A stretch of 64,000 bases of DNA from Gemmatimonadaceae bacterium. Its GTDB lineage: Bacteria; Gemmatimonadota; Gemmatimonadetes; Gemmatimonadales; Gemmatimonadaceae. The stretch spans positions 1-64,000 of the forward strand of contig JACVCD010000007.1 in NCBI GenBank assembly GCA_016742275.1, in the 5' to 3' direction. Positions within the stretch are counted from its first letter, which is position 1. Every line of letters begins with the position of its first letter. Of this stretch, positions 33,033-35,297 are shown in pieces. Made by a program: the position numbers and the translations under genes. The notes beneath the pieces were generated by a model that was given only the letters and a program-made list of their open reading frames with translations, was not told the origin of the DNA and searched no databases.

Positions 33033-33062
33033 ACGAGGACGTGGCCCATCACACGTCCTCGT
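33033..33062. terminator. Terminator hairpin between the kinase and chorismate mutase genes
   Basis: ACGAGGACGTG (33033-33043) pairs perfectly with CACGTCCTCGT (33052-33062) around an 8-nt loop between two convergent genes. The right arm encodes the last codons of the chorismate mutase. No T-run follows. Confidence 0.6.
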
Positions 33063-33384
33063 CACGCTCGACGTCTTTTTGTACTCGCCGCGAAGCGGCC
33101 AGTAGTCGCCAGTAGAGCGCGCGAACTTCGTCTTCCGGTAGCCCCAGCACCCGCGCGCGCCGTGAGGCGCGCGACACGAGAGCCGCTTCCCGCGCCGGAT
33201 CCAGCACAGGCTGGCCGGCGCGTTGCTTCTCCTGCTGGATGGCCTGCGCCAACGCAAATCGTCGCGCCAACGCCGCCAGAATCTGATCATCGACGAGCTC
33301 AATCGCAGCTCTGAGCGAGCCGAGTGATTCGGTGGGTGCAAGACCCAATGAATCACTCGCATGAGTACTCGCCTGGATGCTCAT
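33049..33384 (-). CDS. Chorismate mutase (AroQ type)
   Basis: Small all-helical enzyme of 111 residues that converts chorismate to prephenate, the first step toward Phe and Tyr. The helical AroQ core is [32 protein letters not shown], then [44 protein letters not shown]; Arg/Lys and Glu residues of the active site are in place. It starts at 33384, overlapping the end of the DAHP synthase gene by 4 bp (ATGA), so it is translated with that enzyme. In several bacteria AroQ mutases bind DAHP synthase and are activated by it; coupled translation fits that. It is under the same leader control. Confidence 0.9.
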
Positions 33385-34439
33385 GCTGTCGCTCGCGCCG
33401 TCGCGTTGCTACGCCACTCGCAGGTACGGCCCACGGCCTCGGCAACCGCACGCACCTGCGGCATCATCGCGGCAAACGCCGAGAATTCGAGACTTTGCTC
33501 ACCGTCGCTCATGGCGTTCTTGGGATCGGGATGCACTTCCACGATCAATCCATCGGCGCCTGCCGCCACGGCGGCCAGAGCCAGCGGTGTGACCAGATGC
33601 GCGCGGCCGCCGGCATGACTCGGATCAACCAGCACCGGCAAATGCGTTTCACGCTTGAGCACGGGAATCGCTGCCACGTCCATCGTGTTGCGTGTGGCCG
33701 TTTCATACGTACGAATGCCGCGCTCGCAGAGCATCACATCACCATTGCCCTGCGCCAGAACGTACTCGGCCGCCATCAGCAATTCGGTAATGGTGCCGGA
33801 CAGTCCACGCTTGAGCAGCACCGGGCGCTGCACTTTGCCGACTTCGCTGAGCAGCGAGAAGTTCTGCATGTTGCGAGCGCCGATCTGCAACACATCGGCG
33901 TAGCGTGCCACAAGCTCCACCTGACGCGGGTCCATCACTTCGGTGACAATCGGCATTCCCGTCGTAGCGCGCGCTTCTGCAAGCAATTCAAGACCGGCCT
34001 CGCCCATTCCCTGAAACGCGTACGGACTCGAACGTGGCTTGAAGGCGCCACCGCGCAGCACTCGTGCACCGGCCGCATGAACCGCTCGCGCCGTATCGAG
34101 CAGCATGTCGCGTCCTTCCACACTGCACGGACCGGCCATGACCACCACATTGCGTCCACCAATCGTGGTGTCCGACGTATCACCCAGGCGAATGGCGGTG
34201 TTGGCTACCGAAAACTCACGCGATGCCAATTTGTACGGCTTGAGTACGGGAATCACGCGCTCCACGCCTTCAAGCTGCGTCAGTCCGTGTTCACTGAGGC
34301 GTCCTTCCTCGCCGATACATCCGACGATGGTACGCTGTTCACCGCGCGAGACATGGGTGCGCAGTCCGGCACTCTCGACGTGTTCGATGATGCGGTCGAG
34401 GGCATCGGGCGTGATACCGGCGGTGGTGACGATGATCAT
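33381..34439 (-). CDS. aroF: 3-Deoxy-7-phosphoheptulonate (DAHP) synthase, type I beta
   Basis: First enzyme of the shikimate pathway: condenses PEP and erythrose-4-phosphate. An N-terminal ferredoxin-like regulatory domain (about 1-68, [30 protein letters not shown]) is followed by the TIM-barrel core with AGPCSVE (Cys105, metal ligand), [35 protein letters not shown] and LVDPSHAGG. The N-terminal domain mediates Phe/Tyr feedback in relatives. GAGG lies five bases before the ATG and is itself base-paired in a predicted stem. A 28-codon aromatic leader peptide lies 126 bp upstream. Confidence 0.95.
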
Positions 34440-34444
34440 GCATT

Positions 34445-34486
34445 CCTCGTGGTGTTGCCTGAAATCAGGCGGTGGTGTTCACGAGG
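34445..34486 (-). promoter_or_regulatory. Stem that would cover the aroF ribosome-binding site
   Basis: On the minus strand CCTCGTG (34486-34480) can pair perfectly with CACGAGG (34451-34445), whose GAGG is the aroF Shine-Dalgarno. Inside lies a second stem, GCCTG/CAGGC (GCCTGATTTCAGGC, 34470-34457). Formation would hide the start site. Confidence 0.5.
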
Positions 34487-34515
34487 GTCCGGCGCTCACA
34501 AGCCTCGAAACGACC

Positions 34516-34597
34516 GAGGCCCGTGCAGTGCACGGGCCTCTCGGTGTCGCGGCGGTGGTGATGACTCAGCGCACGCCAAACAAGCCGGGGCCCATGC
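34516..34597 (-). promoter_or_regulatory. Attenuator arms upstream of aroF (2:3 and 3:4 pairings)
   Basis: Arms 3 and 4 form GAGGCCCGTGCA / TGCACGGGCCTC (34540-34516), a perfect 12-bp inverted repeat. Arm 2, GCATGGGCC (34597-34589, leader codons 19-22), can instead pair with GGCCCGTGC (34538-34530) of arm 3 with one G-U pair. The two pairings exclude each other, as in classical trp/phe attenuators. The T-run after arm 4 is weak (GGTCGTTTC). Confidence 0.6.
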
Positions 34598-34652
34598 GGG
34601 TCGGCGTAAAATACCAGTAGCGGCTGTAAAAACTGGTGGCGTGATGCGTCAT
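34566..34652 (-). CDS. Aromatic-amino-acid leader peptide of the aroF operon
   Basis: Short frame of 28 codons ending in TGA, 126 bp upstream of aroF on the same strand. Residues 8-15 are FYSRYWYF, six aromatic residues in eight, with Phe, Tyr and Trp all present; Phe25 is a seventh. AGGA lies eight bases before the ATG. A ribosome stalled at codons 8-15 for lack of charged tRNA would leave arm 2 (codons 19-22) free to pair with arm 3; a ribosome that reaches the stop would cover arm 2 and let 3:4 form. This is the classical transcription-attenuation layout, here sensing all three aromatic amino acids. The peptide itself needs no function. Confidence 0.72.
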   Translation of the reverse strand: MTHHATSFYSRYWYFTPTRMGPGLFGVR

Positions 34653-34700
34653 GCCTGAATTCCTACGGCATGCGGGCGTGTCTGTCAATATCTTCCGGAC

Positions 34701-35297
34701 ATGGAACGCACCACGGAACGGACAATCGGGCCCCGCGTGGCCTTCCAGGGTGCCTACGGTGCCTACAGCGAGCTGGCCATCGCACGCCAGTGGCCCGAAG
34801 GGGCAACGTCCCTGCCCTGCACATCGTTTCCCGACGCGCTGCAGGCCGTCGTTACCGGTGACGCCGACTTCGCGGTCATTCCCGTGGAAAACGCAATCGT
34901 CGGTCCAGTGCGTGTGGCACTTGATGCGCTCGCGGCTATTGATGACGCCGTGATCGTGCGCACTGAACTCCGTGTGCCCATTCACCTCTGTCTGCTCGCA
35001 CCGGCTGGTGCATCACTCGCCGAATTGCGTGAGGTCCGAAGTCATGCTGTCGCGCTCGCTCAATGTCGCATTTTCTTTGCGCGGCATCCCTGGCTCATCT
35101 CCACGCCACACGAAGACACTGCTGGCGCTGCGCGTGATGTCGCTGCGGCACGCAATCGCACGTGGGGCGCGGTAGCCGGAGAAACGGCCGCCGAGCGCTA
35201 TGGACTTGAGATCATTGCCCGCAACATCGAAGATGTGCCGGCAAACTGGACACGATTCCTTGTTGTCAGTCGCGCGGCATCACTGCGGAATTCGTAG
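34701..35297 (+). CDS. pheA: Prephenate dehydratase lacking the ACT domain
   Basis: Converts prephenate to phenylpyruvate in phenylalanine synthesis. The catalytic domain is complete in 198 residues: VAFQGAYGAYSELA (about 13-26), FAVIPVENAIVGPV, and the essential Thr184-Arg185-Phe186 (NWTRFLVVS). The gene stops right there; usual bacterial enzymes continue ~80 residues into an ACT domain that binds Phe for feedback inhibition. So this enzyme is probably not allosterically inhibited. It is divergent from the aroF leader with 48 bp between start codons, so control may be transcriptional. It is convergent with a YceI gene, 6 bp apart. Confidence 0.88.
   Translation: MERTTERTIGPRVAFQGAYGAYSELAIARQWPEGATSLPCTSFPDALQAVVTGDADFAVIPVENAIVGPVRVALDALAAIDDAVIVRTELRVPIHLCLLAPAGASLAELREVRSHAVALAQCRIFFARHPWLISTPHEDTAGAARDVAAARNRTWGAVAGETAAERYGLEIIARNIEDVPANWTRFLVVSRAASLRNS

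Follow-up and report, generated by a model that had tools for sequence, protein, structure and literature searches.

The pheL-pheA, pheST and trpL-trpE systems of E. coli each respond to a single amino acid, have leaders translated in a Shine-Dalgarno (SD)-dependent manner and control terminal-branch genes, and the ilv and thr leaders are multi-residue. As outlined in PMC11802643, pheL-pheA, pheST and trpL-trpE are built from a leader peptide with control codons, RNA arms that pair as 1:2, 2:3 or 3:4, and an intrinsic terminator. According to the same article, which cites Neshat et al. 2014, the aroR leader of C. glutamicum carries Phe-Tyr-Phe ahead of the aroF operon, ribosome stalling at low Phe raises transcription, and the response is to Phe and not to Tyr (PMC11802643). 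The uORFC-13-1 motif of Acholeplasma, for which attenuation was predicted bioinformatically, consists of a promoter, a short uORF with Phe codon(s) and an intrinsic terminator stem before aroF (PMC8632094). In Actinobacteria, classical trp attenuators are GC-rich leader attenuators with UGG codons, and the survey describing them reported that Phe/Tyr operons lacked conserved upstream RNA elements (PMC1262725).

We analyzed a locus of a Gemmatimonadota bacterium in which a candidate leader with aromatic codons precedes the aroF-aroQ operon. It shares with the E. coli systems the control-codon peptide, the alternative arms and the terminator, but sits at the entry enzyme of the pathway. As far as the description of aroR in PMC11802643 goes, in both cases a leader with Phe/Tyr codons immediately precedes a DAHP-synthase operon; the Gemmatimonadota leaders, however, belong to another phylum, are dominated by Tyr with Trp in many genera, are predicted to be leaderless class-wide, and have codons that track the genes of the operon. 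Unlike them, the Acholeplasma motif is Mycoplasma-related, has an RBS and was noted for Phe only (PMC8632094), and the actinobacterial attenuators serve Trp operons only (PMC1262725). The initial annotation of the locus had assumed that known leaders use one amino acid, which the Phe-Tyr-Phe of aroR contradicts (PMC11802643). Its other remark, that it was aware of no such leader in this phylum, agreed with our search of the open-access literature, in which no relevant paper linked Gemmatimonadetes, Gemmatimonas or Gemmatimonadota to attenuation or leader peptides. No Rfam leader family (Trp_leader, Phe or others) reached its gathering score on the right strand: at a permissive threshold the only leader hit was Trp_leader RF00513 at 14.8 bits (41 are needed) on the opposite strand, and no other leader family matched the window leader. 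The Rfam T-box riboswitch model gave no match even at E 5.

Organization of the aroF upstream region

The window, that is, the whole 64,000-nt stretch analyzed, is contig C17 of a 4.57-Mb genome of a soil bacterium, whose nearest relatives with names in public records are Gemmatimonadaceae. The gene predicted to be regulated is aroF (33381-34439, minus strand), encoding a type I DAHP synthase with an N-terminal ferredoxin-like (FXD) domain (PF00793 and PF18152). Its end is overlapped by aroQ (33049-33384, minus strand), a type-II chorismate mutase gene (PF01817) in the same operon. The leader ORF (34566-34652, minus strand) has 28 codons followed by TGA (MTHHATSFYSRYWYFTPTRMGPGLFGVR; ATG at 34652-34650, TGA at 34568-34566). 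As first annotated, codons 8-15 (34608-34631, minus strand) read FYSRYWYF, and the aromatic residues are thus F8, Y9, Y12, W13, Y14 and F15. A 400-kb sample of the same genome was scanned on both strands (800 kb) for ORFs of 12-45 codons in which at least 5/8 residues are aromatic and which have, no more than 90 nt away, a hairpin at least as stable as -15 kcal/mol. Four ORFs reached the aromatic threshold, and among them the aroF leader alone was followed by such a hairpin.

The leader promoter consists of a -35 box TTGACA (34683-34688, minus strand) and, 17 nt from it, a -10 box TAGGAA (34660-34665, minus strand) that ends 7 nt before the leader ATG. Given this distance, the leader start codon is probably also the 5' end of the mRNA, and from the promoter position we predicted a start at the AUG or within 1-2 nt of it. 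The Shine-Dalgarno sequence originally assigned to the leader did not hold up: since the AGG lies only 1 nt before the ATG, it is too close to act, leaving no usable SD. The leader mRNA therefore looks leaderless. Most members of the genus keep ATATTGACA at the -35 box, which lies less than 20 nt from the start codon of a divergent prephenate dehydratase gene (34701-35297, plus strand; interval 34683-34701). On the opposite strand the conserved ATATTGACA may act as the -10 of this divergent gene, so the two promoters probably overlap.

Four RNA arms were located on the minus strand. Arm 1 (GCCGACCC, 34598-34605), an element absent from the initial annotation, begins 2 nt beyond the final aromatic codon and pairs with the region of arm 2 in a 1:2 hairpin spanning 34605-34584. 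Arm 2 (GCATGGGCC, 34589-34597), the 5' arm of the antiterminator, lies inside the leader ORF at codons 19-22 and starts 10 nt after the last aromatic codon; its 9-bp pairing with arm 3 was found as initially annotated. Arm 3 (GAGGCCCGTGC or GAGGCCCGUGC, 34530-34540) is common to the antiterminator 2:3 and the terminator 3:4, and arm 4 (GCACGGGCCTC or GCACGGGCCUC, 34516-34526) is the 3' arm of the terminator. The layout GAGGCCCGUGC-ACU-GCACGGGCCUC (34540-34516) gives a hairpin of -22.5 kcal/mol; the proposed 3:4 pairing was thus present, with a stem of 11 bp and a 3-nt loop rather than 12 bp. It is followed by a weak U-tract (GGUCGUUUC, 34507-34515), the T-run GGTCGTTTCG holding 4 T in 10 as the weak run already recognized, and relatives mostly have longer T runs.

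The arms of the window are mutually exclusive in their pairings: the antiterminator 2:3 is an alternative to the terminator 3:4, and the 1:2 hairpin excludes the antiterminator. Arms 1-4 together folded as 1:2 plus 3:4. When arms 2 and 3 were folded alone, as with arm 1 masked and arm 4 unmade, the 2:3 antiterminator was obtained (-36.1 kcal/mol, z -3.3). At equilibrium 3:4 beat 2:3 even with arm 1 masked once arm 4 was present. Thermodynamics alone is therefore insufficient, and the switch would have to be kinetic, acting during transcription, as classical attenuators likewise do. Farther downstream, CCTCGTG can pair with CACGAGG (34465-34446, minus strand) over the aroF Shine-Dalgarno GAGGAA (34443-34448, minus strand). 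Similar pairing with altered bases is seen elsewhere in the genus and, though weakly supported, might give aroF a further, translational level of control.

Conservation of the leader and its arms across the class

The aroF orthologues were collected from 61 relatives and from 394 sampled genomes of the class, and 138 aroF upstream regions were tested. In 96/138 upstreams, from 45 genera and 5 families, a short aromatic-rich ORF preceded a strong hairpin; as the ORFs had been picked for aromatic content, aromatic richness alone is biased as evidence here. None of the other features (promoter, U-tract, spacing, arm pairing, operon content) entered into the choice of ORF. The 96 leaders include sequences unlike that of the window, such as MTRAQSYAYYYYYTTHTTGRSWRTR, MSTHRASFFFGYFWFSYRPEGRELEDARA and MSARRYSWYWYGPAGPVESCAIGKR. 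A TTGACA/TATAAT-like promoter scoring at least 9 preceded 61% of the 96 leaders (0.6% of shuffles), with the end of the -10 box mostly 6-7 nt before the leader ATG, and leader mRNAs look leaderless throughout the class. Relatives averaged 5.9 T in the 10 nt after the hairpin versus 2.0 in the background. The median distance from the last aromatic codon to the start of arm 2 was 9-10 nt, and hairpins began most often 23-28 nt past the leader stop codon.

Pairing was compared with dinucleotide shuffles. The 2:3 pairing of arm 3 with the 3' half of the leader had a mean z of -2.2 and the 1:2 hairpin a mean z of -1.2, and in each case 0/200 shuffled sets were as low; the outcome was unchanged with one locus per genus. 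Arm types were shared across genera, and arm pairs co-changed between them (GCATGGGCC/GGCCCGTGC, CCACGGGCC/GGCCCGTGG, CCGAGGGCC/GGCCCTCGG and CCGGAAGCC/GGCTTCCGG). In an alignment of 18 near relatives, all cells (100%) were paired for 3:4 and for 1:2, and two-sided changes occurred at 3 and 2 pairs, respectively. The covariation of 2:3 in these relatives was weak (96% paired, 1 two-sided change, 25/500 shuffles as good). All three pairings were far above versions slid by 1-3 columns, a control that leans toward the structures because they were derived from one aligned sequence. Absence of both the aromatic codons and the alternative pairings from orthologous upstreams, which would have spoken against the proposal, was not what we found, and ribosome-mediated attenuation with mutually exclusive arms, as first proposed for this locus, was strongly supported by the comparison across relatives.

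About 30% of the 138 upstreams were without a leader, for example in genera f7g70 and f7g76. These include close aroF relatives in f7g76 (L064, L065, L067, L068, L074, L076, L083 and L089) and, in f7g70, close relatives without an aromatic leader (L136-L138, L142-L144 and L149). Among about 75 aroF relatives sought in other phyla, the sole convincing leader belonged to a Gemmatimonadaceae record (L151), and ten upstreams of that set reached 4/8 aromatics. Within the genome of the window, no comparable aromatic leader preceded trpE or tyrA, and the device therefore does not extend to the pathway as a whole. A second DAHP synthase gene (L250 7291-8298; G000:C7:267291-268298), 50% identical to aroF, was also without an aromatic leader, and only one of the two entry enzymes therefore seems attenuated.

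Trp codons and the content of the operon

Counted by genus, leaders contained Tyr in 45/45, Phe in 33/45 and Trp in 23/45 (about 12, 19 and 9 expected). Trp was present in the leaders of 15/18 genera of family f7 (P 2e-8). In f1, the family of the window, Tyr was universal and Phe conserved, whereas Trp was at background (4/13 genera). The codons were then compared with the genes behind aroF. The sampled operons of f1, f5 and f8 run aroF, aroQ and a tyrA-like dehydrogenase gene, and class-wide it is the solo aroF genes whose leaders hold Trp codons. By genus majorities, 16 genera had aroQ after aroF and no Trp in the leader, 22 had Trp in the leader and no mutase after aroF, none had both and 6 had neither. 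This exclusion was significant (Fisher 3.6e-7; within-family permutation P 1e-4). On the aroF tree the aroQ/Trp state changed jointly more than once, for example in G083 inside an aroQ-bearing clade, in G251/G321/G350 versus their sister G285, and in G029 in the genus of the window. As read from these sequences, the relation between Trp codons and aroQ across the class is new here.

Individual species carried both Trp and aroQ (the window's G000, G001, G022, G021, G186 and G273), and the three-species clade of the window breaks the rule in this way. The Trp codon of the window leader may therefore be new, tolerated or meaningful. In the relative G004 (L009 2562-2660), the aroQ after aroF is shortened by an early stop, apparently a recent loss of the mutase, and its leader is still without Trp.

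The proposal that the leader would monitor all three end products of the pathway was thus partly supported: Trp was enriched in the leaders of f7 and of solo aroF genes but at background in f1, so that sensing of three amino acids would apply to part of the class and is unproven for the window strain. For the window leader, Tyr-tRNA is most likely the one sensed, with Phe second and Trp uncertain.

Discussion

A control-codon ORF lies ahead of a biosynthetic operon, and between them stand a hairpin and a U-tract that is weak in the window and good in relatives. Judged from this arrangement and its conservation, the element is very probably a ribosome-mediated (leader-peptide) transcription attenuator of aroF-aroQ that senses charged aromatic tRNA. 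Transcription would begin at the leader AUG, and the leaderless mRNA would be bound directly by a ribosome. With Tyr-tRNA (also Phe-tRNA, possibly Trp-tRNA) well charged, the ribosome would pass codons 12-15, arm 2 would be either covered or held in the 1:2 hairpin, the 3:4 stem would form, and transcription would stop near 34510. When charged aromatic tRNA is scarce, the ribosome would stall at codons 13-15 and mask arm 1. Arm 2 would then capture arm 3 ahead of the synthesis of arm 4, and with 2:3 formed RNA polymerase would read into aroF-aroQ.

The geometry of masking was considered with the footprint of the ribosome. The control codons are placed so that a stalled ribosome would mask arm 1 and not arm 2, both at the 10 nt of the window and at the class median of 9-10 nt. 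Since arm 1 begins 2 nt past Phe15, stalls at about codons 13-15 would hide it, whereas stalls at F8 or Y9 would not, and these two residues are probably poor sensors. The suggestion that a stall at codons 8-15 frees arm 2 can accordingly be kept for the last two or three aromatic codons (W13-F15), but probably not for F8 and Y9.

Could the hairpin instead be a constitutive, protein- or Rho-controlled terminator or a processing site, with the aromatic ORF a bystander? The weak U-tract of the window would fit such a site. However, the ORF, its aromatic cluster, the distance from promoter to AUG and the position of arm 2 in the ORF are conserved as a set across 45 genera. Changes in arm 2 go with changes in arm 3, the 10-nt gap from the last aromatic codon is preserved, and the Trp codons follow operon content, all of which makes this explanation quite improbable. 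We give equally little credence to a sensor that is the leader peptide itself, or a TnaC-like arrest peptide binding a free aromatic amino acid, in place of codon-dependent stalling. The C-terminal TPTRMGPGxFGVR is indeed conserved as a peptide in the genus, but that stretch holds arms 1 and 2 and varies freely in other genera with the pairing kept, and the interchange of F, Y and W in the cluster fits codon sensing rather than a specific arrest peptide.

Masking of the aroF SD by the CCTCGTG/CACGAGG hairpin would make translational control the main switch. Although complementarity to the SD recurs in the genus (1/300 shuffled sets as low), the z scores per locus are mostly weak, and in other families the terminator often ends just 22-50 nt before aroF, leaving little room for the hairpin; as the main switch it is a shade less probable again than the two preceding explanations. 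Least credible of all is chance, a spurious short frame beside an ordinary GC-rich hairpin. DNA of high G+C content is expected to form many hairpins, but the combination of ORF and hairpin was unique in 800 kb of the same genome, and the class-wide conservation of leader and hairpin already refutes this explanation.

We regard the window device as a genuine attenuator of a familiar type. Our search turned up no previous report from its phylum, and its sensor set is a variant one. On the evolution of that set we lean, by a modest degree, toward reading the aroF leader of Gemmatimonadota as a multi-tRNA OR-gate that is carried on a leaderless mRNA and is still evolving. The aromatic codons would be set by the products of the operon: Tyr/Phe where aroF is joined by the mutase (and tyrA), and Trp added where aroF alone feeds three branches, with mutase loss and Trp gain occurring jointly several times.

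Together, these results would extend leader-peptide attenuation to a whole class without a published case that we could find, with regulation acting where aromatic synthesis begins, at its entry enzyme. The roughly hundred leaders form a natural experiment in which codon content can be read against operon content. A class-wide leaderless start would moreover offer a clean system for studying how ribosomes that load at a 5'-terminal AUG stay in step with RNA polymerase.
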